Positions 7,617-48,998 of a stretch of DNA of 64,000 nt are shown here, in pieces. Under the pieces are notes generated by a model. That model saw nothing but the letters and a program-made list of their open reading frames with translations, was not told the DNA's origin and did not search any database. This DNA comes from Nordella sp. HKS 07 (GTDB lineage: Bacteria; Pseudomonadota; Alphaproteobacteria; Rhizobiales; Aestuariivirgaceae), in contig NZ_CP049258.1 in NCBI RefSeq assembly GCF_011046735.1, positions 310,001-374,000 on the forward strand, written 5' to 3'. How positions within the stretch are numbered: position 1 is the stretch's first letter; every line of letters starts with the position of its first letter. Made by a program: the position numbers and the translations under genes.

Positions 7617-8029
7617 GGATGGCGCAAGCTATTTCCGTAGGGAGATGGCATGAGTTGGAAGAAATCTTTCCGGCCGGTCTATGCTGTAGGAACGTCTGAA
7701 CGGGCGGCGATCGACCTTGCCTGGCTTCAACTTGTCCCTCAATTAACGCCAGCAGCGAACGAGATCGCCGTCACCGAAAACAGGCCGCGTCTGATCTGGG
7801 CATCAGCCACACCCCGTGTGCCGGAATTTTTACCGGCCATACCGCGTCTTCCACAGTGCGCGGTCTGGCCTATGAAAGCTACAATGAGCCCTGTCGGGAA
7901 AGGAGGGTGTCAAATCGGGACGCTCGAAAGTCAAGCGATTGCCAGGGACCTGTCCTAGGCTGTCGAATGGGAAACGCCAGAACCAAGCCCACGATAAGTG
8001 ATGGGTAAAACAACAACGGAGGAAGTCGT
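7617..8029. other. Intergenic region without a supported gene
   Basis: About 410 bp between the divergent operons at 7565 (minus) and 8030 (plus). A 102-codon frame at 7650-7958 has no recognisable domain and looks non-coding. The sequence must hold the promoter of the ABC importer, but no clear -35/-10 pair stands out. A purine-rich GGAGGAAG at 8020-8027 is the ribosome-binding site for the gene at 8030. Confidence 0.5.
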
Positions 8030-9193
8030 ATGCTGAAGACACCCCTGTCGCGCCGGAATTTCATGCAACGCTCGACCGCATTCGCGGCAGCGATGGCAGC
8101 CGGCGCAAAATTCACCACCACCGCGGCTCATGCCGCGCGTGAGAAAGAACTGAACATCCTGTGTTGGGAAGGCTACAACTCGGCCCAGGTACTCGACCCC
8201 TTCCGCCAGTCGAAGGGCGCCACCGTCAAGGCGGAATCCCTCACCAACGATCCGACCATGGTCAACCGGCTGCGCGCCGGTGAAACGAAGATCTGGGACC
8301 TGATCAACGTCAACAATCCCTGGGCGCGCAAGATCATGGCGCCGGAAGGCCTGATCAAGCCGCTCGATCGCACCGCCTTCGAACCCTATTTCGACAAGAT
8401 GATGCCGGCCTTCAAGGCCCCCTATAAATGGGCGATGGACGAGAAGGGCGAGCAGCTCATCGGCATGGCGCAACGCTTCGGACCCTATTGCTTCGTCGTC
8501 AACACCGACAAGGTGAGCCGCAAGACCGCCGAGGATCAGGGCTGGAATCTCTGGAACGACCCGGCCAACGAGAAGAAATACGGCGTTCTCGAATCCGACG
8601 ACTGGAATGTCTTCAATCTCTGCTGCATCGCCGGCTTCGATCCCTTCAAGGTACATACCGACGACGAGGTCGCCAAGTTCACCGAAACGGCGAAGCGCGT
8701 CTTCAAGGGCGCCAAGGTCGTCGGTGACATCGCCACCATGAACCAGTCACTGGTGTCGGGAGAGATCGACTTCCATATGACCGGCGGCACCTATTCGGCC
8801 TCGCCGGCGCGCGCCGACGGTGCTGCGAATATCCGCGGCATCACGCCGAATTCCGGCCCCATGGAAGGCGGCAAGGGCGGCATCGTCTGGATCGAGATCA
8901 CCTCGCCGGTGAACAATCCGGAGCTGTCGCCGCTCGCCACCGAGTTCCTGCACTATGTGCAGGATCCGAAAGTCGCCCATACCGTCGCCTTCGCCGAAGG
9001 CACCTTCAATCCCGTCGCCCAGATGGGCAACAAGGCGTGCTTCGAACTCTTCAGCAAGGAGGAGCTCGACGCCATCCAGTGGGATTCGCTCGAGGAGGAA
9101 GTGGCGCGCTCGGTCGAGTACGACATCGTCCCCGACTACGACAAGCTGCTCGACATCATGACGGCGGCGAAGAAGGAAGCGTCCGCCGGCTGA
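8030..9193 (+). CDS. Polyamine-type ABC substrate-binding protein with Tat signal
   Basis: A 387-residue periplasmic binding protein of the PotD/PotF type (extracellular solute-binding family 1). The N-terminus has a twin-arginine signal: SRRNFMQRS, a hydrophobic stretch and AHA before the mature ARE start near residue 37. The mature part opens with ELNILCWEGYNSAQVLDPF, typical of spermidine/putrescine-like binders. It is the first gene of a five-gene plus-strand operon (binding protein, ATPase, two permeases, SDR). Tat export implies folding before export, which is not usual for Escherichia coli PotD. The ligand may be a polyamine or another small cation. Confidence 0.9.
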   Translation: MLKTPLSRRNFMQRSTAFAAAMAAGAKFTTTAAHAAREKELNILCWEGYNSAQVLDPFRQSKGATVKAESLTNDPTMVNRLRAGETKIWDLINVNNPWARKIMAPEGLIKPLDRTAFEPYFDKMMPAFKAPYKWAMDEKGEQLIGMAQRFGPYCFVVNTDKVSRKTAEDQGWNLWNDPANEKKYGVLESDDWNVFNLCCIAGFDPFKVHTDDEVAKFTETAKRVFKGAKVVGDIATMNQSLVSGEIDFHMTGGTYSASPARADGAANIRGITPNSGPMEGGKGGIVWIEITSPVNNPELSPLATEFLHYVQDPKVAHTVAFAEGTFNPVAQMGNKACFELFSKEELDAIQWDSLEEEVARSVEYDIVPDYDKLLDIMTAAKKEASAG

Positions 9194-9215
9194 ACCGGAT
9201 CGTCACGCCCAGCAA

Positions 9216-9243
9216 GGCCCCTCCCGCTCGAGCCGGAGGGGCC
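9216..9243 (+). terminator. Stem-loop between binding-protein and ATPase genes
   Basis: GGCCCCTCC at 9216-9224 pairs perfectly with GGAGGGGCC at 9235-9243 around a 10-base loop, followed by AAATCTTCTT. Hairpins at this place in ABC operons often stop part of the transcripts or protect the upstream message, so the binding protein is made in excess. The T-tract is poor, so an attenuator or mRNA-stabilising hairpin is as likely as a true terminator. Confidence 0.5.
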
Positions 9244-9273
9244 AAATCTTCTTAAGATGCTCCCAAGGATTGC

Positions 9274-10341
9274 ATGTCAAAGCGCCCGCCCATCTTGCAG
9301 CTTAGGTCCCTCACCAAGTCCTTCGGCACCTTCAACGCCGTGGACGGCATAGATCTCGACTTTGCCGAGGGCGAGTTCTTCACCATTGTCGGCCCCTCGG
9401 GCTCGGGCAAGACGACCCTCATCCGCATGCTCGCCGGCATGGAGCAGGCGACCGGCGGCGACATCATCCTGGCCGGCACGCGCATCAACGACCTGCCCGC
9501 CAACAAGCGCCCCACCTGCATGGTGTTCCAGTCGCTCGCTCTCTTTCCGCACCGTTCCGTCGGCGAGAACATCGAGTTTCCGCTCAAGATCAAAGGCGTC
9601 GATCCGGCCAGCCGCAAAACGCGCGCGCTGGCATTGCTCGATCAGCTGCGCCTGCCGCAGAATTATTACGACAAGTCCGTACTGCGCTGCTCTGGCGGCG
9701 AACGCCAGCGCGTGGCGCTCGCCCGGGCACTCGCCTTCGATCCTAAGATCCTGTTCTTCGACGAGCCCTTGTCGGCGATCGACTACAAGCTGCGCAAGAC
9801 GCTGGAGAAGGAACTCAAGGACATCCACCGCGAGACCGGCAAGACCTTCGTCTACATCACCCATTCCCTCGAAGAGGCGATGGTGATGTCGGATCGCATC
9901 GGCGTCATGCGTTCAGGCAAGCTGGTGCAGGTCGGCACTCCGAACGAAATCTATTCCGCGCCCAAGGACAAGTTCGTCTCCGAATTCATGGGCGACGTCA
10001 ATGTCATCCCGGTGAACATGAATGGCAGCCGGACGATCACCGCCGACACGTTCGACAAGACCTTCAATGTCGCCGCCATCCCGCCGTCCTTCAGCAAGGG
10101 CCATCTCGTCATAAGGCCGGAATTCGTCCGCTTCGTCGACCAGGCGAAGGACGCCGAGAATGTGCTGGAAGGCAAGCTCTATAACGAATATGCGCTGGGC
10201 TCGCGCATCCAGTACCAGGTGCGCGTCGGCGACAATGTCTTCATCGTCGAGAAGCTGCGCCAGCAATCCTCCAGTCTCCAGCGCGACCAGACCGTGCTTA
10301 TCGGCTGGGACGCGAAGGATTCCATCCTGGTGACAGGCTGA
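9274..10341 (+). CDS. ABC transporter ATP-binding protein, PotA type
   Basis: A 355-residue ATPase that drives import by the two following permeases. Walker A is GPSGSGKTT near residue 39, the Q-loop lies in CMVFQSLALFPHRSV, the signature is [15 protein letters not shown] near residue 140 and Walker B is ILFFDEPLSAID. The last ~110 residues form the TOBE-like regulatory domain seen in polyamine and sugar importers. One oddity is CSGG in place of the usual LSGG signature start. The stop overlaps the next gene's ATG by one base (TGATG). Confidence 0.93.
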   Translation: MSKRPPILQLRSLTKSFGTFNAVDGIDLDFAEGEFFTIVGPSGSGKTTLIRMLAGMEQATGGDIILAGTRINDLPANKRPTCMVFQSLALFPHRSVGENIEFPLKIKGVDPASRKTRALALLDQLRLPQNYYDKSVLRCSGGERQRVALARALAFDPKILFFDEPLSAIDYKLRKTLEKELKDIHRETGKTFVYITHSLEEAMVMSDRIGVMRSGKLVQVGTPNEIYSAPKDKFVSEFMGDVNVIPVNMNGSRTITADTFDKTFNVAAIPPSFSKGHLVIRPEFVRFVDQAKDAENVLEGKLYNEYALGSRIQYQVRVGDNVFIVEKLRQQSSSLQRDQTVLIGWDAKDSILVTG

Positions 10342-11207
10342 TGGCGGCCCTTCACGAGAACGGCAAAATCCTCTCGCAGGGCGCGTGCAATGCGCTGCCG
10401 GTGATGATTTTCATGGCCCTGGGCTTCGCCGCCCCCCTCCTCGCGGTGATCGCCTACAGCTTCATGCCGCCGCGTTCCTTCGGCCTCACCCACACGCCGA
10501 CCCTCGCCAACTATGCCGATATTTTCACCAGCAACAGCTATATCTCCTTCGGCTGGTCGATGCTCTTTGCCGCCCTCACCGTGTGTATTCTGGCGGTGAT
10601 CTGCTACCCGATCGCCTACGGCCTGGCGTGTCTCTTCGGCCGTTGGTCGCCGATCCTGACGCTGCTTTTCACCATTCCGCTCTTCGTGTCGGAGAATGTC
10701 CGCCTCTATGGCTGGATCCTCTTCTTCATCAAGAACGGGGTGCTCCTGGGCACGCTCAAATCCTGGTTCGGCATCGAGCCGGAAAGCATTCTGTTTACGC
10801 CGGGCGTGGTGCTGCTCGGCATGGTCTATGTCTATCTCCCCTTCATGCTGTTCCCGATGACGCTCGGCGTCTCGATGGTGCCGAACGAGACCCGCGAGGC
10901 CGCACGCGATCTTGGCGCCTCCCGCTTCCAGGTCTTCCGCGAGGTCGATCTGCCTTTGTCGATGCCCGGCATCATGATCGGCCTCCTTCTCACTTTCGTG
11001 CTCGCCGTCGGCGCCATCGCCGAGGCGAAGGTGCTGGGCGGCCAGACCATCATACCGATCACCCATGATATCGAGATCGCCTTCACCTATGCGCAGAACT
11101 GGCCCCTGGGCGCCGCATTGGCCGTGCTCCTGATGCTCGTCGTCGGCACGCTGGTGATGCTGGTGCTCAAGCGGTTCGATCTCGACGCCATTCTGGGGCG
11201 GAGGTGA
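10341..11207 (+). CDS. ABC transporter permease, PotB type
   Basis: A 288-residue inner-membrane permease with six predicted hydrophobic helices. The cytoplasmic EAA loop that docks on the ATPase reads EAARDLGASRFQVFREVDLPLSMPG (about residues 186-210). This is the first of two permeases. The ATG overlaps the ATPase stop, and the next permease starts 4 bases after its stop, so translation of the set is coupled. Confidence 0.92.
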   Translation: MAALHENGKILSQGACNALPVMIFMALGFAAPLLAVIAYSFMPPRSFGLTHTPTLANYADIFTSNSYISFGWSMLFAALTVCILAVICYPIAYGLACLFGRWSPILTLLFTIPLFVSENVRLYGWILFFIKNGVLLGTLKSWFGIEPESILFTPGVVLLGMVYVYLPFMLFPMTLGVSMVPNETREAARDLGASRFQVFREVDLPLSMPGIMIGLLLTFVLAVGAIAEAKVLGGQTIIPITHDIEIAFTYAQNWPLGAALAVLLMLVVGTLVMLVLKRFDLDAILGRR

Positions 11208-11210
11208 GCC

Positions 11211-12002
11211 ATGACTGATCGTGGCCGCCGCGCATTGATCTGGACCTGGACGCTCGCCGTCCTGGTCTTTCTCTATCTGCCGGCGCTGTGCATCCTGCTC
11301 GCTTCGCTGACCTCGAGCCGCTACTTTCTGTTCCCCATCCAGAAATGGGGACTCGACTGGTGGCGCAAGACCTTCGAGTCGCTCGAAATCCGCCAGCTCT
11401 TCGCCAATTCGATCACCATCGCCTTCTGCGTCATGGTGATCGCCGTGGTCATCGCCTTCTTCGGGGCACTGGCCTTCGCCCGCTACAATTGGAAAGGCCG
11501 CACCACCTTCCAGAAGATCGTGCTGCTGCCGATCTTCTTCCCGCAATCCGTGCTGGGCCTCGCCCTGCTCCTCTGGTTCAACGCCCTCGGCATCCAGACC
11601 TCCTGGATGACCGCCATCTTCGCCCATCTCGTATGGATCATCCCGGTGGTGACGCTGGTCATCTCCATCCAGGTCTATAGCTTCGACCCGGCGCTCGAGG
11701 AGGCGGCATTCGATCTCGGCGCCTCGCGCTTCCAGGTTTTCCGCGAAGTGACGCTGCCCGTCCTCCTGCCGGGCATCGTCTCCGGCGCCTTCTTCGCCTT
11801 CCTTCTGTCCTGGGGCAACTTCCCTCTGTCGCTCTTCACGACCGGCGCCGACGTGACCATCCCCAAATATCTCTACGCCAAGATGGTCGCGGGCTACACG
11901 CCGGGTGTTCCGGTCCTCGGCACCGTATCGACCTTCGGCGCGGCCCTTCTTCTGCTGGGCGGCTACTGGCTGGTCACCCTGCACCGGCGCGCACAATCAT
12001 GA
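11211..12002 (+). CDS. ABC transporter permease, PotC type
   Basis: A 263-residue inner-membrane permease, the partner of the upstream PotB-type protein. Six hydrophobic helices are visible, and the EAA loop EEAAFDLGASRFQVFREVTLPVLLPG lies at about residues 163-188. Together with the binding protein and ATPase this gives a complete importer. An SDR gene follows after 24 bases with its own AGAGAGGAAAT ribosome-binding region. Confidence 0.92.
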   Translation: MTDRGRRALIWTWTLAVLVFLYLPALCILLASLTSSRYFLFPIQKWGLDWWRKTFESLEIRQLFANSITIAFCVMVIAVVIAFFGALAFARYNWKGRTTFQKIVLLPIFFPQSVLGLALLLWFNALGIQTSWMTAIFAHLVWIIPVVTLVISIQVYSFDPALEEAAFDLGASRFQVFREVTLPVLLPGIVSGAFFAFLLSWGNFPLSLFTTGADVTIPKYLYAKMVAGYTPGVPVLGTVSTFGAALLLLGGYWLVTLHRRAQS

Positions 12003-12026: not shown

Positions 12027-12806
12027 ATGTTTTCGTCATTGAAGGACAGATCGGTTCTGGTCACCGGCGGCAGCAAGGGCATCGGGAAGGGCATTGCGCG
12101 TGTCTTCGCCAAGGCCGGCTGCAAGGTGCTGATCACCGCACGCAATGAGGATGTGGCCAAGGCCGCCGCTGCCGAACTGAGCGCAGGCGGAGGTACCGTC
12201 GCCGCCTTCGCCGCTGACGTCACCGACTACAAAAGCATGCAGAAGGCGGCCGACTTCGCGGTCAAGACGCATGGCGGACTCGACGTGCTCTGCGCCAATG
12301 CCGGCATCTTCCCGCAGGTGAAGATCGAGGACATGTCGGACGAGACCTGGGACGTGACCGTCGACACTAATCTCAAGGGCACGTTTCTGTCGGTGAAAGC
12401 CTGCCTGCCGGCGCTGAAGAGAAGCGGCGAGGGCCGCATCATCATCACCTCGTCCATTACCGGTCCGGTGACCGGCTTCCCCGGCTGGACGCATTACGGC
12501 GCCACCAAGGCCGGCCAGCTCGGCTTCATGCGCACCGCCTGCATGGAGCTCGCCAAGTTCGGCATCACCGTGAATGCCGTCATGCCGGGCAATATCGCCA
12601 CCGAAGGCCTGGCCGGTCTTGGCCCCGATTACGAGAAGACCATGGCCGCCTCGATCCCGCTGAAGCGCCTCGGCAAGGTCGAGGATATCGGCTATGCGGC
12701 GCTCTACTTCGCGACCAAGGAAGCGGGCTATGTGACCGGCCAGACGATCATCGTCGATGGCGGCCAGATCGTGCCCGAGTCGATCGAGGCCATCAATCAG
12801 GCTTGA
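12027..12806 (+). CDS. Short-chain dehydrogenase/reductase (FabG-like)
   Basis: A 259-residue classical SDR, NAD(P)-dependent. The cofactor motif is TGGSKGIGKGIA (residues 13-24), NAG is in CANAGIF, and the active site is Ser in ITSSITG with YGATK (Tyr and Lys) near residues 155-159. The C-terminus has the usual GQTIIVDGGQ. It closes the importer operon, so it probably oxidises or reduces the imported compound or a product. FabG-like resemblance alone does not imply fatty-acid synthesis. Confidence 0.88.
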   Translation: MFSSLKDRSVLVTGGSKGIGKGIARVFAKAGCKVLITARNEDVAKAAAAELSAGGGTVAAFAADVTDYKSMQKAADFAVKTHGGLDVLCANAGIFPQVKIEDMSDETWDVTVDTNLKGTFLSVKACLPALKRSGEGRIIITSSITGPVTGFPGWTHYGATKAGQLGFMRTACMELAKFGITVNAVMPGNIATEGLAGLGPDYEKTMAASIPLKRLGKVEDIGYAALYFATKEAGYVTGQTIIVDGGQIVPESIEAINQA

Positions 12807-30440: not shown

Positions 30441-30446
30441 TGGCCC

Positions 30447-31920: not shown

Positions 31921-32010
31921 TTGGCGTCGCTTCGCTGCGGTGCGGAATTTGGTCCGCTATCGGGGCATAGCCGACAGGCGCGACCTGATAGCGATAGTGA
32001 CCCAAAGCGG
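31915..32010 (+). repeat. Repeat A, copy 4 (at the IS copy 2 right end)
   Basis: TGGCCCTTGGCGTCGCTTCG, then GCGGAATTTGGTCCGCTATC, GGGGCATAGCCGACA and GTGACCCAAAGCGG. The second half is shorter than in copies 2 and 3. It abuts the IS. Confidence 0.75.
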
Positions 32011-38802: not shown

Positions 38803-39429
38803 CTACCCTCTTCCCTTGACGGTCTTCAGCAGCGCCACGATATGGTCGCGCGCCTTTTCAAGTTCGCTTTTTTCGCCCGACATGAACAGTCGTCCCGAGG
38901 CGCCGATCATCTGGCAGTCGACCAGCGTGGCGCCGGGCGCGATTCTCTCCGCCTCGTTCGCCGCATAGGCCGCGAACAAAGCCGGCATCATCTCGATCAG
39001 CAGCAGCGATTCGCCGGGGAGGATCATCGACGCCTCGCGGTTGCGATTGAGGATGACGGCATGGCTGTCCGTCACCTCCGGCACGATCTCGGCGAAGAGC
39101 AACTGCGGCTTGAGCTGGTCCTCGGCCTTCTGGCCGATCGCCTTCAGCACCGCCGCGCCGGCCCGGTCGACATGATCCATATCGAAGGAATGCAGCTCGA
39201 GAATGCCGAACTGCCGCTCGGTATAGAGAATGCCGGGCTCGGCTTCGGGCACCGTTTTCAACGCCACATCGCTCACATGATGAATGGCGAGCGCAGGCGC
39301 GATCTCGATAATCAGCGAATGCATCCCTTCCAGCGGCACATAGCCCCGCGCGCGGGTCGGCGATCCCATATAGGCGGCGAACTGCCGCCTTAAGGATTCG
39401 AGCTTCAAATAGACGCGGAGTTCGGCCAC
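38803..39429 (-). CDS. Microcompartment shell protein, tandem BMC (BMC-T type), first
   Basis: A 208-residue protein with two BMC-like domains. The first has IIEIAPALAIHHVSDVALKT and GILYTERQFGILELHS (residues 40-85). The second has SHAVILNRNREASMILPGESLLLIEMMPA and IGASGRLFMSGE. Such proteins form pseudohexameric trimer tiles in the shell, often with a gated central pore. It is 9 bp downstream of the BMC-H gene and last in the shell operon. It is paralogous to the BMC-T gene at 40502. Confidence 0.88.
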   Translation of the reverse strand: MAELRVYLKLESLRRQFAAYMGSPTRARGYVPLEGMHSLIIEIAPALAIHHVSDVALKTVPEAEPGILYTERQFGILELHSFDMDHVDRAGAAVLKAIGQKAEDQLKPQLLFAEIVPEVTDSHAVILNRNREASMILPGESLLLIEMMPALFAAYAANEAERIAPGATLVDCQMIGASGRLFMSGEKSELEKARDHIVALLKTVKGRG

Positions 39430-39438
39430 GGCAGGCTG

Positions 39439-39714
39439 TTACTTCGCGGTGCCGAAATGCTTGAGCACATCCGGATGCGGACGCGGGATGACATGCACCG
39501 ACACCACTTCGCCGACATTGCGCGCCGCTTCGGCACCCGCTTCCGTCGCCGCCTTCACGGCGCCGACGTCACCCTGCACCACGACCGACACCAAGCCGGC
39601 GCCGACCTGCTCGCGGCCGATGATGGTCACATTCGCCGCCTTCACCATCGCATCGCCCGCGGCGAAAGCCGCCACGAAACCACGCGTTTCGACAAAACCA
39701 ATTGCGTTAGACAT
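39439..39714 (-). CDS. Microcompartment shell protein, BMC-H (PduA/EutM-like)
   Basis: A 91-residue single BMC domain: [46 protein letters not shown] and [14 protein letters not shown] at the C-terminus. Hexamers of this protein tile the shell facets and let small substrates pass. AAAAGGAGGAC is a strong ribosome-binding site just before the ATG, fitting the need for many copies. It is the only BMC-H gene in the window. Confidence 0.95.
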
Positions 39715-39747: not shown

Positions 39748-40029
39748 TCAACTCTTCTTGCCGGATTTGGCCGGAGCGCTCTGCTCATCGAGAATGCCGA
39801 TGACCAGCGCATCGACGACATTTTTTCCGTCCTTGAACCACGCTTTGGCGACGGACCCTTGCGTGATCAGCACCCGCTCGCCCACGCCGGCGCCCAGGGG
39901 ATCGAACGCCACCATGCGCTCGTCCATCTCGTCTTCTTCCTCGATGGCGATTTCGAGCAGCGCCCCGCCCGGCAGTTCGTCGAGCCTCTTGGTGGCCCAC
40001 ACTTTTCCGACGACGATTCCTGTCTTCAT
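39748..40029 (-). CDS. Microcompartment vertex protein, BMC-P (EutN/CcmL)
   Basis: A 93-residue EutN/CcmL-fold protein: MKTGIVVGKVWATKRLDELPG, then an acidic EEEDEMDERMVAFDPLGAGVGERVLITQGS segment, KAWFKDGKNVVDALVIGILD. Pentamers cap the shell vertices. It overlaps the upstream 159-residue gene by 4 bases (ATGA). One BMC-P gene per locus is usual for the small RMM-type loci. Confidence 0.95.
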   Translation of the reverse strand: MKTGIVVGKVWATKRLDELPGGALLEIAIEEEDEMDERMVAFDPLGAGVGERVLITQGSVAKAWFKDGKNVVDALVIGILDEQSAPAKSGKKS

Positions 40030-40505
40030 GAGCGATCCCTCACGATTTCAAGCTTCACCTCGCGCGCTCTGTCGCGCGCCAGCGGCGTCACCACGACGCC
40101 CTTGCCGATAAGGAGCCGGTCATGGCTCTTGCCGATTTCGGTGACCATGATCTCCGTCACCACGCCTTTGGAAATCTGATGCGGGCTGCGCGGCGTGGCG
40201 GACGCCGCGACGCTCGCTGTGCCGCCAGCACGCGACGCAAGGCCGAACTGGATCTTGCCTGACAGAACGCCGGTTCTGACGTCCTCCTGCGCCTGCAGCA
40301 GATCGCGCGCGAAGGTATTGAGATCGCCGGCGGTCTCGATCCTGATCTCCACCGGCGCCGGTTTCGGCTCGACAAGAGCCGAGCGCAGCCGCGACAGGAG
40401 CGAGCCCCCGCCCCCGGTCGCGGGACTCGATCTGACGGCCGGCAGCAATTCACGCAAGGCTTCGCGCACCAGTTGCCGGATCTCGGTCGAGGACAAGCCG
40501 CTCAT
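40026..40505 (-). CDS. Microcompartment-associated protein of unknown function
   Basis: A 159-residue protein. It starts with an amphipathic helix, EIRQLVREALRELLP (residues 8-22), followed by a Gly/Ser linker (SSPATGGGGS), the layout of an encapsulation peptide. The middle (residues 50-90) is mixed. The C-terminal half, GVVTEIMVTEIGKSHDRLLI, GKGVVVTPLARDRAREVKL, is beta-rich. Overlaps of 4 bases on both sides lock it between BMC-T and BMC-P. A gene of similar size sits at the same place in mycobacterial RMM loci (from memory); its role is not established. It may be luminal or a shell-cargo adaptor. Confidence 0.82.
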   Translation of the reverse strand: MSGLSSTEIRQLVREALRELLPAVRSSPATGGGGSLLSRLRSALVEPKPAPVEIRIETAGDLNTFARDLLQAQEDVRTGVLSGKIQFGLASRAGGTASVAASATPRSPHQISKGVVTEIMVTEIGKSHDRLLIGKGVVVTPLARDRAREVKLEIVRDRS

Positions 40506-41113
40506 GCCGCCCTCCTCATCTCGAGCGCCTGCTCGGCCGCGTGGGCAGCGGCCCTGATATTGCTCTCCTCGCCCGAGAGATAGACGCGCCCGGTGGCGCC
40601 CATCATCCGGTAGTCGACCACTTTGACATTGGCCGCCTTCTCTGCCTCATTGGCGGCGAGGATGGCATAGGCGGCGGGCTGCATTTCGAGCACGAACAGC
40701 GACTCGCTCGGCAGGATCATCGAGCCCGACTTGTTCCGGTTGATCAGCAGCGCGTGATAATTGTCAACCCGCTTGACGATCTTCGATGCCAGGATTTCCG
40801 GCTTGAGCGCGTCCTTCTCACTTGTGCCGAGCTCGGCCATGATGGCATCGCCCGCCGCGCGCACCGCCGCCGTCGAATGCGAGTGGAATTCGAGATAGCC
40901 GAACTGTCGCTCGACCACCAGGATGCCGGGCTTCACGTCGACCGTCTTCACCGCGATGTCGGTCAGGGGCTCGATGTCGAGGCCGGGCGCCACTTCGATC
41001 ACGATCGCCGCCATATTGGCGCGCGGCAGGAAGCCCCGGCAGAACGTGCCGAGATAGCACATGGTGCCGGGCTGCAGCTGATCGATGAAGATATAGGAGC
41101 GAAGCTTGGCCAT
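40502..41113 (-). CDS. Microcompartment shell protein, tandem BMC (BMC-T type), second
   Basis: A 203-residue double-BMC protein: AAIVIEVAPGLDIEPLTDIAVKT and GILVVERQFGYLEFHSHS in the first domain, HALLINRNKSGSMILPSESLFVLEM and MMGATGRVYLSGEE in the second. It is 40-50 percent alike to the BMC-T at 38803 by eye, so the pair arose by duplication. It starts one base inside the aldehyde dehydrogenase stop (TGATG), so shell and enzyme are co-translated. Confidence 0.9.
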   Translation of the reverse strand: MAKLRSYIFIDQLQPGTMCYLGTFCRGFLPRANMAAIVIEVAPGLDIEPLTDIAVKTVDVKPGILVVERQFGYLEFHSHSTAAVRAAGDAIMAELGTSEKDALKPEILASKIVKRVDNYHALLINRNKSGSMILPSESLFVLEMQPAAYAILAANEAEKAANVKVVDYRMMGATGRVYLSGEESNIRAAAHAAEQALEMRRAA

Positions 41114-42684
41114 CAGCGCGCCGTCATTTCCTTTAGTTCTTCAAGGATGATGCGGCGGATTTCCGCCCGCATATCGGCATCCTGCGTTGCCTGTCGTGCC
41201 GGCGCCGGTGAAGACACGACGCTGTCAGGGTGATTGCCAAAATCGTAATCGATCTCGCCGCGCGGCGGCACGCCGATCCTGGGCTTCTCGATGCGATCGG
41301 TCGCCTGGAAGGACGGCATCTGGATGCGGTCGTCCTTGTTCCACGCCATCTTCACCCATTGCACCAGATGGCGCGGCTCGACATTCTCCGCCACCGAGCT
41401 CCTGCCGAAATAGCCGGTGCCGATCGTCATGGTCGGCGCCAGATGCGTCTCGAAGCCCGAGGCGCCGAGGCTGTTGCCGACATTCACGCTGATGCGCAGC
41501 ACATTCATCTCCTCGCCATAGCGCAGGATGATCTGCGGATCGCGCGCATGGATGGAGGCCGAATGGCCGCCGCCCGAGCGCCGGGTCATCGCCCGGCAGG
41601 CGATCATCGCGGCTTCGCGCGTCGCCGCCACATAGAGGCCGATGACCGGGCACAGCTTCTCGCGCGACAGCGGATAGTCGTCGCCGATGCGGGCGAGCGG
41701 CGCCACCAGCACCCGGGTGCGCGGCGGCACCCGGAAGCCGGCTTTCTGCGCGATGAGCTCGGCCGGCTTGCCGATTAGCGAGATGTCGAATTTGTCCTTC
41801 GGGAACAGAGTCTTCTCAAGCAGATCGCGCTCCTCTTCGCTGCAGATATGACAGCCATTGCGCTTGAGCTCGTGGGCGAGTCCATCGGCGATGGCGCCAT
41901 GGGCGATGATGGCACTTTCATTGGTACACAGAATGCCGTTGTCGAAGGACTTCGAGTCGGCGATCGCCTTGGCGGCCTCGGCCACATCGGCCGTCTCGTC
42001 GACATAGGACGGAACATTGCCGGGCCCGACGCCGATGGCCGGGTTGCCGGAACTATAGGCGGCGCGCACCACGGGCGTGCCGCCGGTCGCGAGAATCACG
42101 TCGATGCGGTCGGACTTCATCACTGTTTCGACGATCGGCAGCGAGGGTTCGTCGACGACCTGGATGATGCCGTCGGGCGCCCCGGCATCCTCGGCCGCCT
42201 TGGCGAGGAGCCTGGCCGCGTCGGCGCAACAGCCTTTCGCCATCGGGTGCGGCGAGATGATGATGGCGTTGCGGGTCATAAGACACAGCATGATCTTGTA
42301 GAAGACGGTGGCGACCGGGTTGGTCGAAGGGGTCAGCGCGAAGACGACGCCCGCCGGCCGCGCGATCTCCAGGATCTTGCGCGCGGCATCGAGCCTGACG
42401 CCGGTGAAGTCCTGGTCTTTGTAGAGCTCATAGAGGCCGCGCGAGCAGGCCTGGTTCTTGATCAGCTTGTGCTCGGCGACGCCGAAGCCCGTCTCCTCCA
42501 CCGCCCATTGGCCATAACGCTGGGCCTGGGCATAGCCCGCCTCACCGGCCGCCTTGGCGATCCGCAACACCGCAGCCCGGTCGAGGCCGGAAAAGGCTTC
42601 GGCCGCCCAGCGCGCCTTTTCCACCATCTGCTTGGCGTGAAAGCTGGTGAAGCCTCTATCTTCGAGAAGGGGATGTATGGCCAT
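41113..42684 (-). CDS. Microcompartment aldehyde dehydrogenase with C-terminal encapsulation helix
   Basis: A 523-residue aldehyde dehydrogenase, of the CoA-acylating PduP/EutE type by sequence feel. FALTPSTNPVATVFYK (near residue 115) binds cofactor, GTPVVRAAYSSGNPAIGVGPGN is the next block, and SFDNGILCTNES holds the catalytic Cys near residue 252. The extra C-terminal tail ends EIRRIILEELKEMTAR, an amphipathic helix of the kind that targets enzymes into shells; it resembles the N-terminal helix of the neighbouring 159-residue protein. It would oxidise a short toxic aldehyde inside the compartment. First gene of the shell operon, divergent from the AraC gene. Confidence 0.92.
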   Translation of the reverse strand: MAIHPLLEDRGFTSFHAKQMVEKARWAAEAFSGLDRAAVLRIAKAAGEAGYAQAQRYGQWAVEETGFGVAEHKLIKNQACSRGLYELYKDQDFTGVRLDAARKILEIARPAGVVFALTPSTNPVATVFYKIMLCLMTRNAIIISPHPMAKGCCADAARLLAKAAEDAGAPDGIIQVVDEPSLPIVETVMKSDRIDVILATGGTPVVRAAYSSGNPAIGVGPGNVPSYVDETADVAEAAKAIADSKSFDNGILCTNESAIIAHGAIADGLAHELKRNGCHICSEEERDLLEKTLFPKDKFDISLIGKPAELIAQKAGFRVPPRTRVLVAPLARIGDDYPLSREKLCPVIGLYVAATREAAMIACRAMTRRSGGGHSASIHARDPQIILRYGEEMNVLRISVNVGNSLGASGFETHLAPTMTIGTGYFGRSSVAENVEPRHLVQWVKMAWNKDDRIQMPSFQATDRIEKPRIGVPPRGEIDYDFGNHPDSVVSSPAPARQATQDADMRAEIRRIILEELKEMTAR

Positions 42685-42712
42685 GCAAGGAGGCTACGGC
42701 ATCGCGCCAGGC

Positions 42713-42744
42713 GCGGCTTGACACCAAACCCGGCCAGCTTGACA
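42713..42744. promoter_or_regulatory. Paired TTGACA direct repeats (probable AraC-type operator, shell operon)
   Basis: GCGGCTTGACA at 42713-42723 is followed by GCTTGACA at 42737-42744; the two TTGACA hexamers are exactly 21 bp apart, two helix turns. They lie in the 219-bp divergent spacer, 34-60 bp upstream of the aldehyde dehydrogenase ATG. The same arrangement, with the identical 11-mer, occurs at 47595-47626 in front of the aminotransferase operon. AraC-type activators bind such phased direct repeats. The second TTGACA could also act as a -35 box for the AraC gene. Confidence 0.6.
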
Positions 42745-42903
42745 TCAGTTCTCGGAAATTAAATTAGGGACATGATAAAGTAGGTACCCGAGGACGCTCC
42801 TCCACTCTATGGTGTCCCTGATTTTAACGCGCAGACCTCTGAGAAGTTGCCTCGCCGCTTTTTCCATGTCACGCTGCCGCCCAAAGAAAAATAAGGGCGT
42901 CTT

Positions 42904-43932
42904 ATGCGGCCTAGGGAAGAAAGCGCCAATCCGGGGATCCTGGCCTCGGCAGCGACCGGCATCGCCGATCATATCGCGCGCTGGGGCGGCGATATCGACC
43001 GGGTCTGCGGTGCGGCGGGCGTCGATCCAGCCTGCGTCGGGCAGCCCACTTTGAGTCTCGAGCTTGCCGCCTTCTGCTCCCTCTTCGAGGAAGCCGCCCG
43101 CGATACCCGCAATCCCAATTTTGGCCTTTGGTTCGGCAACAGCTTCAAGCCGCGCGATCTGGGCCTCATCGGCTATACGGCCGTCTCCTCCCCGACGCTT
43201 GGCGCGGCGCTGGAGAATTTCGTCGGCCTGTTCGGGCTCCACCAGCAGTCGACCCATATGGCGATCGCCGATGCCGGCAATGGCCTCGCCCGCCTCGAAT
43301 ATCAGATCCGCATGCCCGATATCCTGGCGCGCCGCCAGGACGCCGAGCTCTCGCTCGGCATGTTCCTCAACATCATCCGCGAATGCCTGGGCGCCAGCTG
43401 GGCGCCGGAGGAAGTGCATTTCGAGCACCCCAAGCCCGAGGCCTGGCGCGAGCATGAAAGCGCTTTCGACGCGCCCGTTTATTTCTCCCAGTCGACCAAT
43501 GCGCTGGTCTTCAAGCGCGAGCTGTTCGGGCGTCCGATGCCGGCGCCCGACCTGAAGCTTCTGTCAATCACCCGCATGTGCCTGATGAGCGTCGGTACCC
43601 GGCCGGTGCCGCGCCAGACGCTGAAAGACCAGATCCGTTCCGCCGTCCGCGCCCGCCTCGCCGAGGGCTATCCGGCCCTCGAAGCGGTGGCGGAGGCCAT
43701 CAAGTCCTCGCCCGCCGCCATCCAGCGCGAGCTCGCGCGCGACAATCTCAATTACAAAGACCTGGTCGAGGAGACGCGCCGCGACCTGGCGCTCGTTTAT
43801 GTAAACCAGCGCGAGCTTCCCTTCTCGGAGATCGCCTTCCTGCTCGGCTACTCGGAACTCTCCGCCTTCTCGCGCGCCTTCCACCGTTGGACCGGCACGT
43901 CGCCGCGCAATTACCGGGCTGAGAAGGCCTGA
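42904..43932 (+). CDS. AraC-family transcriptional regulator
   Basis: A 342-residue regulator. The N-terminal ~190 residues match the arabinose-binding-domain-like part of OruR/ArgR-type AraC proteins (FGLWFGNSFKPRDLGLIGYTAVSSPTLGAALENF). The C-terminal HTH pair has ALEAVAEAIKSSPAAIQREL and PFSEIAFLLGYSELSAFSRAFHRWTGTSPRNYR. The gene is divergent from the microcompartment operon and convergent with the aminotransferase-kinase operon. It probably senses the substrate and activates both through the phased TTGACA repeats. The long leader (about 160 bp from the repeats) leaves its own promoter open. Confidence 0.92.
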   Translation: MRPREESANPGILASAATGIADHIARWGGDIDRVCGAAGVDPACVGQPTLSLELAAFCSLFEEAARDTRNPNFGLWFGNSFKPRDLGLIGYTAVSSPTLGAALENFVGLFGLHQQSTHMAIADAGNGLARLEYQIRMPDILARRQDAELSLGMFLNIIRECLGASWAPEEVHFEHPKPEAWREHESAFDAPVYFSQSTNALVFKRELFGRPMPAPDLKLLSITRMCLMSVGTRPVPRQTLKDQIRSAVRARLAEGYPALEAVAEAIKSSPAAIQRELARDNLNYKDLVEETRRDLALVYVNQRELPFSEIAFLLGYSELSAFSRAFHRWTGTSPRNYRAEKA

Positions 43933-43947
43933 CTGTCGGGACTTGTC

Positions 43948-44463
43948 CTATGGAGTGCTGGGGTTGGTGCCCCGCGTCAGGCCCAGCAGGCCGGCCGAGA
44001 ACAGGACGATCATTACGAAGTAAAGCGCCCCCAGCACTGTTTCGCGCAAATAGATGGCGGTCTCCTCATAGACGCGCCTCGGATCGCTGGCGAAATTGAG
44101 CAGCAGGTCGGTGCAGGTGGCGCTCGGGCTTGTGGCGAGGACCGTGGCAGCTTCTGATTTCAACACCGAACCGATGACGACCCGGCCGGGTCCGACCTCG
44201 CATGACCAGACCTGCGACAGGTAAAAATAGATGATGAGCAGCACCACACCCAGGATGAACGGCCCGAAGATGGCAACCCGACTGCTGCTCGGGATTAACC
44301 TGGCCAGGAGAGCAGCGGCAACTGCAATTGTCGCCAGGAGCTTCCAGTTGAGCGCGCTGCCTTCCAGCGAATGTCCCGGCGGTGTGTAGATAAGAGGTGT
44401 GGCAATCGCCACGGCAGCCACAGCAACGGCATAAGCCCCCTTCCAGATGGCCAGCCACTTCAT
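43948..44463 (-). CDS. Four-helix membrane protein of unknown function
   Basis: A 171-residue protein from ATG 44463, whose ATG overlaps the upstream stop (ATGA); a longer frame to 44514 is less likely. Four hydrophobic segments are visible: IWKGAYAVAVAAVAIATPLIY, LLATIAVAAALLARLI, FGPFILGVVLLIIYFYLSQ and LGALYFVMIVLFSAGLLGL. Between helices 3 and 4 lies a loop with two Cys (SCEVGP and ATCTDLL). No family is recognised. Tight coupling with the next gene suggests the two products work together at the membrane. It is the last gene of the run beginning at 47553. Confidence 0.7.
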   Translation of the reverse strand: MKWLAIWKGAYAVAVAAVAIATPLIYTPPGHSLEGSALNWKLLATIAVAAALLARLIPSSSRVAIFGPFILGVVLLIIYFYLSQVWSCEVGPGRVVIGSVLKSEAATVLATSPSATCTDLLLNFASDPRRVYEETAIYLRETVLGALYFVMIVLFSAGLLGLTRGTNPSTP

Positions 44464-45179
44464 GGAATTCCGATCTCGATTCTCTCGACGGGTTGCCGGC
44501 CCAGGAGCGTGCATCTGTTCTTGATCACCAGCGCGTCCTTGGCGGTGCGGACATGAATGATGTAGTAGCCGGGCGGCATGAAGTCCTGCGTCGGCGTGGT
44601 CAGCTTGGGAAAGACCCTGAAGGGCGGGATGGAATCGCCGGTGCCAAGCATATAAAACTGAATGTAGAGGCCGTTGACCGGCTTTCTGTCGTAGGAAGTG
44701 ATCGTATTCACCTCAACGGCAACGTCTGTGCTCGTTTCGCCGCGCTGCAGTTGAAATTCAATGCCCCAGAGCTTGATCTTGATGTCCTCATGGCTGATCC
44801 GGATATAGTCCGTAGCCTTGTCCATGTCTTCTTCAGTGGCGGCTTTACGGAGCGTCGCCGCATCATAGTCGAGCATCTCGCCGTAGAATTTTGAGACTTC
44901 GAATTTAGGCAGGTAGCCGACAAGTCGGCTAATGTCATCGCCGAGCTGTTTGATCCATCCACTCTCAGACCGATCGGCGAAACGCGGCAGGAGCTCTTGG
45001 GCGGCACCTGTCAGACGAGCTGTGATCTGGGACAGGGTTTCATTGTCGATAAGATCCGGCTTTCCCTGAGAAAACGCGCGTTCACTCGCGAGTGCCAGAC
45101 TCGCTGCGAGCAGAGCAAACGATCTCCGGCTGATCAGACCCCTCATGATGCCGTCTCGTGGCGTTTTATCCCGGTCCAC
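44460..45179 (-). CDS. Exported protein of unknown function
   Basis: A 239-residue protein; start at 45179 or ATG 45146. ISRRSFALLAASLALASERAFSQ (about residues 16-38) is a signal sequence with a twin-Arg but without the full Tat consensus. The mature part is helical (IDNETLSQITARLTGAAQEL, then a region with SRLVGYLPKFEVSKFYGEML) and ends in a beta-rich domain (VEVNTITSYDRKPVNGLYIQFYMLG, FMPPGYYIIHVRTAKDALVIKNR) that resembles a small carbohydrate- or peptide-binding sandwich. No known domain is named with confidence. 47 bp after the kinase gene, so it may be read from the same promoter. Confidence 0.7.
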   Translation of the reverse strand: MDRDKTPRDGIMRGLISRRSFALLAASLALASERAFSQGKPDLIDNETLSQITARLTGAAQELLPRFADRSESGWIKQLGDDISRLVGYLPKFEVSKFYGEMLDYDAATLRKAATEEDMDKATDYIRISHEDIKIKLWGIEFQLQRGETSTDVAVEVNTITSYDRKPVNGLYIQFYMLGTGDSIPPFRVFPKLTTPTQDFMPPGYYIIHVRTAKDALVIKNRCTLLGRQPVERIEIGIP

Positions 45180-45226
45180 CCGACCGAAGAACGGCTAGCA
45201 TTACATATAACGTAAGGGAAATCTAG

Positions 45227-46224
45227 CTAGCTGAATTTCCGCAGATAGTCCTCGCACAGGGCGACAGTGTCCTGCGTATAGGCAATGCCCATCGACTTCG
45301 CGAGATCGGTTTCGGCATGCGACCCGATCCAGGCGACCAGCAGGAGCCGGCGGAACATCACGAAGGTCGGAATCTCGTATTCGTCCTCAGGCGACAGCGT
45401 CGCCACGCTGCGATAGCCCTTGACCCAGGCGGCGATCAGCTCAGGCACGTCGGGACGGTGCTCGATGAAGGAAAGCGCGGTCGCGCCGTCATAGAGATAC
45501 CAGCTGAAGCCGCAATCGTCGAAATCGATGACCTTCGTCTCATCACCGTCGATCAGCAGATTGGCGAGACGCATGTCGCAATGAATGAGGCCATAGCGCT
45601 CGGCCCCCTTGCCGAAGGCCAGAAGCCGCTTCTCGATGAGATCGACGGTGCGCTGAAAGAGCCGGGCCTTCCCGGCATCGAGTCCCATACCGTCGCGCCA
45701 CGAACCCCAATGCTGTACCTTGCCGAAGGCGCCGTCGAAATCCCAGGTCAGGCGCTCGAAGCTCACTGGCCTCTGCCACTGCCGCGCATGCCGGTGCATG
45801 CGCGCGGTCGCAGCACCCAGCACTTCGAAGGGCCCGAGCAGTTCGGCTTCGGAGGGCTCGGCGCCCGTTTCCCAGTCGAACAACACGGCATGCCGCTCAG
45901 CGAGGCCCGGCAGCGTTATGTTCTGAATGATCTCGCCGTCCTGGCCCTTGATCGGCACCGGCGTGGTCACGGCGCCATCCCGGCGCAGCGCCTGAAGCCA
46001 GGCGAGCTCGGAGCCGATGGCGGCCTTCGAGTGATAGCCCTCGCGGTGCACCCGCAGGGCCCATTTCTCTCCCCCGCATCGACGCGATAGGTCGCGTTCT
46101 CCGACAGGTTGATCATCGTCGCCCGGGCGCCGGCCGGCAGGTCATAGGTCTTGAGCGCCGCATCGGCGATGCGCTGCAGCTGAGCGAGCTTCTCCCGATG
46201 GGTAAGCGTATCCGATGATGACAT
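45227..46224 (-). CDS. Small-molecule kinase, APH family (amino-alcohol kinase-like), frameshifted
   Basis: Bases 46224 to about 46075 encode the N-terminus (MSSSDTLTHREKLAQL, ATMINLSENATYRVDAG). The frame then changes at a C5 run on the plus strand (46071-46075); one more base would give DAGGEKWALRVHREGYHSK and lead into the main frame ending at 45227. The main part has RYGLIHCDMRLANLLIDGD (Brenner motif, catalytic Asp, metal Asn) and TKVIDFDDCGFSWYLYD (DFG-like). Family members phosphorylate small amines, choline or hydroxylysine. Next to a class III PLP enzyme the likely pair is kinase plus phospho-lyase, as for 1-amino-2-propanol. The shift could be a sequencing slip. Confidence 0.8.
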
Positions 46225-46227
46225 GTA

Positions 46228-47553
46228 TCAGGCCGCCGACTGGCGCGAATGGGAAGGCTTGGAGCTCGTCATGTAGCTCTTTGCCCGGCCGCCGAACACC
46301 TCAGCCTGCGCCTGGGCGACGGAGGTGTCGAGGCGGGTCAGGATCTCGTCGCACATTTCGCGGTCGATCAGGAGACCCGGCTTGAACTGCAGCACCCGCT
46401 TGTCGAGCGTCGAGAAGATCGCCCAGATGCCGTTCTGATAAAGGTGCTTCATCACATAGACCGCACCCTGGTCATGGTTGAATTCGAGCCCCATGACGAT
46501 GCCGCGCTGGCGGATGCCGGTGAAGAAATCGGGATAGTTCGCCTGCACCTGGCGCAGGCCATTGGCGAGATAGGCCGAGATGTAATGGACCTGCGAGCGC
46601 GTTTCGGGGCGCGCGCAGATTTCCAGTACCTTGGCCGCGGCGAGGCAGCCGAGCTCGGCGCCGCCGAAGCTCGACATATGGCCGAAGCCGTCCTCGCTCA
46701 GCCATTGGCCGGCCTTCTCGCTCACCACCACCGCGGCGATCGGATAGATACCGCCCGACAGCCCCTTGCCGGTGACCAGGATGTCCGGATTAACCCCATA
46801 GGTCTCGATCCCCCACATCTCGCCGGTGCGCATGAGGCCGGTCTGCACTTCGTCCGCGATATAGAGCGTGCCGACCTTCTCGCAGGCGGCCTTGATGGCG
46901 GTCAGATAGCCGGGCTTCGGCATCGGGAAGCCATAGGTGGCGGGGATCGTCTCCATGATCACGCAGGCCGCATCGCCGACCGCGATGGCTTCGAGCATAC
47001 GCTCGAGATCGTTGAACGGCACCTTGACCACATTCTCGTTCGACGCCTCGGACAGGAACAGCTTGGAGAAACGATCATCGCCCACCTGGACCGCGAGGCC
47101 CGTATGGCCGTGATAGCAGCGCTCGATGCAGATGATCTTGCGGCGCTTGGTGGCGTTGCGGGCGCTCTTGAGCGCGATGTCGATCGCCTCGGCGCCGCCC
47201 GAGGCGAAGATGGTGCGCTTGAGGCCCGGCGGCGTCAGCCTTTCCAGCATCTCGGCCACATGAGTGCGCATGATCGACGGGAAATGGTGATTGCCGATGT
47301 CGAAATAGGCCATGCCCTCGCGCACCGCCTCGACCACTTCGGGATTGCGGTGGCCCAGCGAATAGGTGCCGCCATTGAGATGGACGTCGATCAGCCGGCG
47401 CCCGTCGACATCCCAGAGGTAATAGGCCTCGCGCCGGTCGATGACCAGATCGACACCCATGCGCTGCCATTCCGAGGTCTTGCCGGGATTCCAGAATTGC
47501 TTCGACCGGGCGATGAAGTCGTCTTTTTCCTTGCTCATCGAGCGGGGCTCCAA
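46228..47553 (-). CDS. Class III aminotransferase-family PLP enzyme (transaminase or phospho-lyase)
   Basis: A 441-residue class III PLP protein; start at 47553 or ATG 47538 (MSKEKDDF). Recognisable parts are RRLIDVHLNGGTYSLGHRNPEV, FASGGAEAIDIALKSARNAT, IICIERCYHGHTG, IADEVQTGLMRTGEMWG (PLP Asp) and LVTGKGLSGGIYPIAAV (Schiff-base Lys near residue 266). It is 3 bp before the kinase gene. Related proteins include transaminases and O-phosphoethanolamine/phosphohydroxylysine phospho-lyases. With a kinase next door, a phospho-lyase making an aldehyde for the microcompartment dehydrogenase is a strong alternative to a transaminase. Confidence 0.88.
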   Translation of the reverse strand: MEPRSMSKEKDDFIARSKQFWNPGKTSEWQRMGVDLVIDRREAYYLWDVDGRRLIDVHLNGGTYSLGHRNPEVVEAVREGMAYFDIGNHHFPSIMRTHVAEMLERLTPPGLKRTIFASGGAEAIDIALKSARNATKRRKIICIERCYHGHTGLAVQVGDDRFSKLFLSEASNENVVKVPFNDLERMLEAIAVGDAACVIMETIPATYGFPMPKPGYLTAIKAACEKVGTLYIADEVQTGLMRTGEMWGIETYGVNPDILVTGKGLSGGIYPIAAVVVSEKAGQWLSEDGFGHMSSFGGAELGCLAAAKVLEICARPETRSQVHYISAYLANGLRQVQANYPDFFTGIRQRGIVMGLEFNHDQGAVYVMKHLYQNGIWAIFSTLDKRVLQFKPGLLIDREMCDEILTRLDTSVAQAQAEVFGGRAKSYMTSSKPSHSRQSAA

Positions 47554-47594
47554 GGGATTCTGCCTGATGGGACCTTAGGCCCTCAGGCCTCGGA

Positions 47595-47626
47595 GCGGCT
47601 TGACAGAAGACGCACGGGATTTGACA
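47595..47626. promoter_or_regulatory. Paired TTGACA direct repeats (probable AraC-type operator, aminotransferase operon)
   Basis: GCGGCTTGACA at 47595-47605 and ATTTGACA at 47619-47626, with TTGACA hexamers 21 bp apart as at 42713-42744. It lies 47-62 bp upstream of the candidate aminotransferase start codons. No other such pair was noticed in the window by eye. Confidence 0.6.
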
Positions 47627-47631
47627 GGTTC

Positions 47632-47662
47632 AAGCGTGATGGCTTGAGTCGCCATCACGCTT
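47632..47662. repeat. Perfect 12-bp inverted repeat
   Basis: AAGCGTGATGGC (47632-47643) pairs with GCCATCACGCTT (47651-47662) around TTGAGTC. It lies between the aminotransferase operon start and the DegT-like gene end. It could end transcription of the DegT-like gene, though no clean T-run follows on the minus strand. Confidence 0.45.
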
Positions 47663-47768: not shown

Positions 47769-48998
47769 TTACTGTTTTGATTCGATCAATTCAGGGGCGA
47801 CCGGCTTCTCCGCGAGCCGCTTTATGACCTCTGCCTGGCGGACGAGTTCCGCATCCGGCATCGAGTCATAACAGGGAATGACCACGAGATCGCGCATCAC
47901 ACCGGCCGCCGTCCTGGGCTCGAGTTCCGGCCGGTCCTTGGGCGCCGCGATATGCTGCGAGCGCGGCAGGTCGGCGGCATCGAAGCCCTCGGCCCGGAGC
48001 CCGTCGATGAATTTGCGCGGCTCCTCCACCAGGAGCGGGAACACCCAGTAGTCGTGATGCACATTGGCCTGCGCCGGCATCGCCACAGCGCCGCCGATCA
48101 GATCGCGCAGCGTCTCGCCCTTGCTCGTCCGCACACGGATATCCTGGATGTCGAATTCCTCGAGCCTGCGGTTGAGCAGCGCCAGCATCGCGGTCGAGGG
48201 TTGGAAGCGCAGGTTCTTGGCCGTCTTGAGCGGGGCGACATCGCGCACCCGGTCGGCGAGCGAATCCTCATAGTCCTGGCCGCGCGCATTGTAATATTTG
48301 TAGATGGCGCCCAGCACCGGCCGCGACGTGACCAGCTTGAGCCCCATGAATTGCAGGATGCGCTTCAGATGTTTCTTGTCGGGCTGCAGCGGATAAGTGG
48401 CCTGGATGGCCCGCATGCGGCCGCGCAATTTGTCGTCGCGCACCCGGATCAGGGCGCCGCCCAGCGCGGTCGAGGTCTTGATCGGGCCGAAGGAGAACAG
48501 GCTCAGATCGGCCTTGTCGCTGCCCGGATAGGCCCTGCCGTTGAAGGCCTGTGCGCAATCCTCGACCGCGACAATGCCTTTGACCCGCACGAGGTCGAAG
48601 AGCGGATCGAGATCGAGCCTGGCCCCGAAGAGGTGCGCAGCGACGAAAACACGTGAACGCGGCGTAATGACCTTCTCGAGCCTTGCGAGGCTCGGGCCCA
48701 TCGAGCCCACATCGAGTTCGACCGGAACCGGCACTAGGCCGGCATCGCGCACCACCCGCACCATGCCGCGGACATTGAGGGCCGAGAAGATCACCTCATC
48801 GTCGGGCTTGAGCTCGAGCGCCTGGATCAGGAGATCGAAGCCGGAGCGTACCGAATAGGCGGCGATCGTGTCATCGGCATCGGAAAAGAAGCCTTCCACC
48901 GAGCACCGCAGGGCCTCGCGGTCGTTCGATTTAAAACAGTTCCAGGCTCCCGCCAGGAGATCCCCCCATCCGATCTTGAGTTGCGTTCTGACCCACAT
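47769..48998 (-). CDS. DegT/DnrJ/EryC1/StrS-family PLP protein
   Basis: A 409-residue sugar-aminotransferase-like protein. FSALNVRGMVRVVRDAGLVPVPVELD, FVAAHLFGARLDLDPLFDLV, VAVEDCAQAFNG and SLFSFGPIKTSTALGGALIRV (PLP Lys in the last) follow the family order. The central part (residues 195-260) is unlike typical sugar aminotransferases and contains basic helices (QPDKKHLKRILQFMGLK). Such enzymes usually transaminate nucleotide-sugars; the divergence makes the substrate uncertain. It is a stand-alone gene, 161 bp divergent from the hydroxylase. Confidence 0.82.
   Translation of the reverse strand: MWVRTQLKIGWGDLLAGAWNCFKSNDREALRCSVEGFFSDADDTIAAYSVRSGFDLLIQALELKPDDEVIFSALNVRGMVRVVRDAGLVPVPVELDVGSMGPSLARLEKVITPRSRVFVAAHLFGARLDLDPLFDLVRVKGIVAVEDCAQAFNGRAYPGSDKADLSLFSFGPIKTSTALGGALIRVRDDKLRGRMRAIQATYPLQPDKKHLKRILQFMGLKLVTSRPVLGAIYKYYNARGQDYEDSLADRVRDVAPLKTAKNLRFQPSTAMLALLNRRLEEFDIQDIRVRTSKGETLRDLIGGAVAMPAQANVHHDYWVFPLLVEEPRKFIDGLRAEGFDAADLPRSQHIAAPKDRPELEPRTAAGVMRDLVVIPCYDSMPDAELVRQAEVIKRLAEKPVAPELIESKQ

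Follow-up and report, generated by a model that had tools for sequence, protein, structure and literature searches.

Paired direct repeats as the proposed operator of an AraC-family regulator at an amino-alcohol microcompartment locus of Alphaproteobacteria

What do two identically spaced pairs of TTGACA words do in front of two operons of a bacterial microcompartment (BMC) locus? The question is raised by a 64,000-nt stretch of the genome of Nordella sp. HKS 07 (NZ_CP049258.1, positions 310,001 to 374,000 of the forward strand; hereafter the window, whose numbering is used throughout), in which TTGACA occurs as direct repeats 21 bp apart, start to start, at 42718/42739 and 47600/47621, with GCGGC before both pairs. 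The first pair precedes an operon for an aldehyde dehydrogenase and shell proteins, the second an operon for a class III pyridoxal 5'-phosphate (PLP) enzyme and a kinase, and the gene for an AraC-family regulator (42904..43932, plus strand) lies between both pairs, divergent from the aldehyde dehydrogenase operon. An initial annotation of this stretch had placed all of these elements correctly, and had proposed from them a single regulon, an operator model, and a functional tie of the kinase and PLP enzyme to the shell. We are highly confident that the adjacent AraC protein has its operator in these repeats; it would bind them and activate three promoters, those of an importer operon, the shell operon, and the PLP enzyme–kinase operon; this reading draws on the sites themselves, their constancy and orientation, their distance from a −10 element, and their co-occurrence with the AraC gene. 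It is a switch of an ordinary kind, yet an unusually clean example.

Exact TTGACA-N15-TTGACA is found twice in the window, as compared to 0 occurrences in 100 dinucleotide shuffles. In the whole genome (7,184,314 bases, one contig) there are likewise two exact matches, at 42718 and 47600 and thus both at these operons, as had been expected, while the backwards-read control gives none. The operator model stands, but its functional reading is reversed: the operator reads TGTCAA-N15-TGTCAAG toward the genes. Operator 1 (42718..42744, minus strand; TGTCAA-N15-TGTCAA), before the aldehyde dehydrogenase–shell operon, is followed after 21 bp by a −10-like TAGCCT (42691..42696, minus strand) and is kept in loci L027, L028, L029, and L030. 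Operator 2 (47600..47626, minus strand; TGTCAA-N15-TGTCAA), before the PLP enzyme–kinase operon, is followed after 22 bp by TAAGGT (47572..47577, minus strand) and is kept in L027, L028, and L030. A long inverted repeat at 47631-47662, seen by eye, adjoins operator 2; no counterpart can be seen in the 25 bases preceding the L027, L028, and L030 sites.

The single regulon is well supported, the presence of AraC tracking that of sites at the locus, but a third operon had been missed. Operator 3 (7908..7934, plus strand; TGTCAA-N15-AGTCAA, one mismatch) stands before an ATP-binding cassette (ABC) importer and dehydrogenase operon, with TAGGCT (7956..7961, plus strand) 21 bp further on, and is kept in L027, L028, and L030. 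It is among the 18 genome matches to the pattern with at most one mismatch. A matrix trained without the window's genus and applied to these 18 matches gives the three window sites scores of 30.8–33.5, while the best of the other 15 (at G000:C1:4248804) scores 19.4; among the 18, only the three described sites score high. The diol dehydratase of this genome, at 3.27 Mb, has no match with one mismatch or fewer nearby.

Across genomes, sites were profiled with one box as TTGACA and the other as TTGACA, TTGACC, or TTGACT, yielding 62 sites, 60 of them distinct; the box letters are fixed by this search pattern and hence are no evidence for conservation. One-mismatch matches in L127, L132, L138, L140, and L142, and one inside the L133 dehydrogenase gene, are left out of these totals. 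Read toward the genes, the motif becomes TGTCAA-N15-[T/G/A]GTCAAG, with the G directly beyond the box (G28) near-fixed (57 of 60 distinct sites, and 46 of 49 outside the window's genus). The 11-mer GCGGCTTGACA, noted earlier upstream of both pairs, is indeed common to both window sites, but as the motif it is rejected, since no more than 8 of the 60 distinct sites have GCGGC before the box, and its sharing is mostly coincidence.

That shared 11-mer is the one point in favor of chance, or of one ancestral promoter duplicated in this genome, as the source of the repeats. The spacing refutes this explanation. In 36 pooled AraC-positive stretches (622 kb), 41 TTGACA pairs stand at offset 21 and none at any of the 54 other offsets from 6 to 60, with about 0.03 pairs expected per offset. 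As predicted initially, the repeats are conserved in orthologous loci (all nine exact matches in the five genomes of the genus are at these operons) and they recur in other families and in a further order-level sample of Alphaproteobacteria; across sites and families the spacer is uninformative at most of its positions, yet both the flanking G and the −10 persist. With the shuffles also empty, we regard chance or duplication as having next to no probability.

The orientation of the sites bears on a further alternative, in which tandem sigma-70 promoters directed away from the operons use the TTGACA words as their −35 boxes and the 21-bp repeat is incidental. TTGACA is the −35 consensus, and araC, a gene read in that direction, has one window pair upstream of it. 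Yet TANNNT appears at spacers 16–19 past the second box in 0 of 60 sites when read that way, and a conserved −10 is on the opposite side; the TTGACA words therefore do not appear to be outward −35 boxes. On that opposite side, TANNNT starts 20, 21, or 22 bp past the proximal box in 2, 37, and 10 sites, respectively (49 of 60 in all, and 38 of 49 outside the window's genus), and at any other spacing in no more than 3. Moreover, beyond 47600 the next gene (47769-48998) is oriented against the TTGACA direction, and, irrespective of where araC sits, sites are found before genes for the PLP enzyme, kinase, and importer. We thus consider outward promoters very improbable, and return to an operator acting toward the pathway genes: 57 of the 62 sites point at and closely precede such genes (importer, 18; kinase, 16; PLP enzyme, 14; dehydrogenase–shell, 8; short-chain dehydrogenase, 1). 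The other five, beside second AraC copies, point at genes for a fused large–medium diol dehydratase. In several loci, the PLP enzyme and kinase genes diverge from a common intergenic region in which each has its own operator, the two operators being opposed (L080 5695-5789, L130 4648-4741, L133 11723-11816, L127 11770-11847, and L182 2631-2946).

Does the regulator accompany the sites? AraC was sought in 69 genomes of the family (E-values up to 1e-60), 397 of the order (1e-75), and 385 of the class (1e-75), these samples overlapping, and is present in 37 genomes overall. Pathway genes accompany it in 31, including G208, where AraC stands alone on a 4.8-kb contig; an exact site is found at the pathway genes in 25 of the 31, a one-mismatch site in 5 (G069, G081, G386, G420, and G607), and none in G208. 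The remaining 6 genomes (G117, G309, G488, G496, G608, and G705) have a related AraC but, over the 10.8–20 kb fetched, neither microcompartment genes nor a site. Conversely, 15 genomes have the microcompartment dehydrogenase but no such AraC (14 of genus g2, plus G185 of another family), and 0 sites with one mismatch or fewer are found in their fetched locus stretches of 3.6–20 kb. The loci of genus g2 (L082-L094 and L010) have the same microcompartment genes but lack both such an AraC and an operator at the locus.

Two groups of loci extend the association. G069, G386, and G420 (L138, L132, and L131) have AraC, kinase, dehydrogenase, and one-mismatch operators, with no microcompartment aldehyde dehydrogenase found; regulator and operator therefore also serve shell-less loci, and apparently it is the same regulator that serves a shell-less version of the pathway. 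Second AraC copies stand divergent from a fused large and medium subunit diol dehydratase, with an operator of the same kind (L136 14068, L171 8664, L173 16708, L175 8614, and L176 7781). The AraC/operator module thus seems to have been duplicated beside the diol dehydratase, known as the extra enzyme of RMM2 loci (PMC4207490), where RMM denotes the Rhodococcus–Mycobacterium microcompartment type.

A protein of the same distribution as AraC might bind the regulon sites instead, or AraC might repress rather than activate; the evidence is of sequence, and another protein could share that distribution. Against this, direct repeats two helical turns apart beside or over the −35 are a usual feature of AraC-family activators (PMC4514859, PMC5481539), the AraC gene has one or more sites within 10 kb (broken contigs excepted), and the second AraC copies bring their own site before the diol dehydratase. 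We judge such a regulator, or repression, to be improbable, though less so than outward promoters.

Several observations weigh against AraC as the activator at these repeats. No site among those found points at the AraC gene itself, 11 of 60 sites have no TANNNT at spacers 20–22, and past the hexamer and its flanking base the B box, the second part that AraC half-sites typically have, shows only weakly. The co-occurrence amounts to few independent events, because 14 of the 15 AraC-negative microcompartment genomes are of one genus; such genomes were sought within the order only. There is also a background of the bare pattern: exact matches occur in 33 of the 69 family genomes, as compared to 11 matches for the backwards control in all 69, and 23 of the 59 AraC-negative family genomes have one to three exact matches each, 30 in total (about 0.5 per genome). 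Among the 14 AraC-negative microcompartment genomes, 6 have exact matches elsewhere and none has one at the microcompartment locus, while AraC-positive G042 and G052 have one and three exact matches off the locus. When pathway genes were sought within about 1.5 kb of 30 exact-match loci (L047-L076), the AraC-negative ones showed weak relatives alone (24–29% identity, or PotD2). The bare pattern outside the window's genus is not specific by itself. The case is therefore carried by placement, spacing, and flanks rather than by rarity alone.

How would such a switch work? Two AraC monomers, or one dimer, would sit on one DNA face on the two direct TGTCAA half-sites, 21 bp or two helical turns apart. 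Taking the −10 by consensus, the proximal half-site TGTCAAG would lie at about −39 to −34 of the gene-ward promoters, as in AraC/XylS activation, and would substitute for a good −35 element. On sensing a compound of the amino-alcohol pathway, AraC would help a sigma-70-type RNA polymerase use the −10 located 20–22 bp on; with the inducer, the protein on both half-sites would contact polymerase at a promoter that has no good −35. In this genome the three promoters would be those for importer and dehydrogenase (7908), aldehyde dehydrogenase and shell (42718), and PLP enzyme and kinase (47600), so that import, dehydrogenation, phosphorylation, phospho-lysis, CoA acylation, and shell would be induced together. 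The imported amino-alcohol, or a product close to it, is the most likely inducer.

The arrangement resembles known activator sites of the AraC/XylS family (XylS at Pm, MekR, AraC, and MtlR), which have two direct half-sites just upstream of or over the −35. The XylS site is TGCA-N6-GGNTA-N6-TGCA-N6-GGNTA and that of MekR is likewise built, with a 21-bp period that we computed from the quoted strings (PMC4514859; the XylS site is also described in PMC5481539). In contrast to these, a single hexamer, TGTCAA(G), dominates the window half-site, whose second box is weak; the regulator has a PF12625 N-terminal domain; and the regulon is that of a microcompartment.

Operator 3 offers a view of the operator under rearrangement. 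The importer operon lies within a few kilobases of the shell genes in L027, L028, and L030, with the operator kept, but about 26 kb separate it from the shell operon in the window (12806 to 38803); since the site is kept in both arrangements, operator 3 outlived the rearrangement. When any last base is allowed in the first box, all three sites are recovered in four of the five genus genomes. In the fifth, the fragmented G057, the same relaxed pattern finds the shell site and one site on contig C168. Each of the five also has one or two further matches elsewhere. This third operator of G057 (L199 1501-1527) precedes an amino-acid permease (PF13520, 1722-3026) where genus relatives have the ABC importer; it has TANNNT at spacer 21, and its neighbourhood is that of the window's site, with homologous genes upstream. 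In G057 the transporter differs and the operator stays. A further exact match of the blind family scan, on G045:C174, stands before PotD. Both the permease site and the G045 site were found afterwards and are outside the counts given above.

The shell-operon promoter has an additional peculiarity. In all five genus members only 6–7 bases separate the −10 from the ATG (6 in the window, where the ATG is at 42684), a distance too short for any leader, barring the use of another promoter. The TAG or TAA of the −10 forms an in-frame stop in four of the five (not in L029). In dehydrogenase codons 2–19, pairwise differences number 47 at third positions versus 8 and 4 at the others, and because the changes are mainly in third positions these codons are translated. 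We therefore predict that the shell-operon ATG lies at about +1, yielding a leaderless mRNA, in all five genus members. Outside the genus, the three shell operons with their own site show longer distances (85, 86, and 122).

The shell operon, on the minus strand, begins with a 523-aa aldehyde dehydrogenase (41113..42684), probably of the CoA-acylating type by its best families and solved relatives, and continues with a BMC-T shell protein (40502..41113), whose nearest solved relative is the RMM shell protein MSM0275 (5l39), a 159-aa member with no assigned function (40026..40505), a BMC-P vertex protein (EutN/CcmL; 39748..40029), a BMC-H shell protein (39439..39714), and a second, CcmP-like BMC-T (38803..39429) that is below the cut-off of the CcmP model and has no Pfam match at 0.001. 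The PLP enzyme of class III aminotransferase fold (46228..47538, minus strand; the ATG at 47538 is the conserved start) is by homology probably an amino-alcohol-phosphate phospho-lyase. The APH-fold kinase that follows (45227..46224, minus strand) is broken in this assembly by a frameshift, leaving 85 codons to the first stop, and is intact at 331–332 aa in L027, L028, and L030; the L027 copy has 6ef6 as best solved relative, at 298 bits. The diol dehydratase (G000:C1:3266434-3268072) likewise matches in two separate pieces. Broken kinase and split dehydratase together hint at indel errors in this assembly. Under operator 3, on the plus strand, are the PotD/PotA/PotB/PotC-like importer (8030..12002; open reading frames 8030-9193, 9274-10341, 10341-11207, and 11211-12002), whose solute-binding protein was assigned by Pfam and whose other three components were assigned by reading the frames, and a short-chain dehydrogenase (12027..12806) with 6ci8/6ci9 as best solved relatives. 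We take 6ef6 and 6ci8/6ci9 to be the M. smegmatis aminopropanol kinase and dehydrogenase.

By homology, the window locus appears to be an amino-alcohol microcompartment of the RMM/AAUM type (AAUM, aminoacetone utilisation), with which it shares the short-chain dehydrogenase, APH-fold kinase, class III PLP enzyme, aldehyde dehydrogenase, and CcmP-like BMC-T; the solved relatives of kinase (6ef6), dehydrogenase (6ci8/6ci9), and BMC-T (5l39) point the same way, and some related loci carry a diol dehydratase, as RMM2 does. These genes and their association are already known, and the RMM/AAUM microcompartment has been proposed to convert aminoacetone to propionyl-CoA (PMC8156839). The repeats therefore corroborate, rather than reveal as had been claimed, a tie between the shell and both kinase and PLP enzyme that was already known from such microcompartments. 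Actinobacterial RMM1 pairs a GntR regulator with an amino-acid permease (PMC4207490), unlike the window, which has AraC and a polyamine-type ABC importer and no such pairing; G057 has an amino-acid permease.

The regulator itself, a proposed activator of 342 aa, combines PF12625 (Arabinose_bd, N-terminal; 2.7e-51) with PF12833 (HTH_18; 9.4e-13). It scores 311.7 bits against the QhpR model (NCBIfam NF049968, cut-off 250), but we reject QhpR as its identity. The model matched all 10 further wider-clade proteins that it was given, including the AraC near a quinohemoprotein amine dehydrogenase gene (L192), which is 26% identical to that of the window, and it also matches related AraCs without microcompartment genes. 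This genome (G000) has no match to quinohemoprotein amine dehydrogenase (PF08992), and five fetched PF08992 stretches contain no close AraC (best 26%, in one stretch) and no site with fewer than two mismatches. The NCBIfam name is over-broad here.

Searches of an open-licence paper library turned up no published operator for an AraC clade in control of a microcompartment of the RMM type, and the main text of the 2021 microcompartment catalogue has no occurrence of 'AraC' (PMC8217296). The sites would supply an operator and a regulon definition for the clade. We see roughly even chances for a broader proposal, that one dedicated alphaproteobacterial AraC clade brought the entire RMM-type regulon under its control (importer, dehydrogenase, kinase, PLP enzyme, aldehyde dehydrogenase, and shell, plus diol dehydratase with a second AraC copy) through one operator that survives transporter exchange, with a leaderless shell operon in the genus that would answer to the same signal and be translated differently. 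Regulon membership indicates which transporter and dehydrogenase belong to the pathway; the inducer, hence the true substrate (proposed to be aminoacetone or 1-amino-2-propanol), can be tested by means of a simple reporter; and alphaproteobacterial work gains a promoter whose operator is defined.

Elsewhere in the window, 29035-30454 and 30509-31928 form a direct duplication of 1420 bp, 99.6% identical and 1474 bp apart, that carries two identical 343-aa open reading frames.

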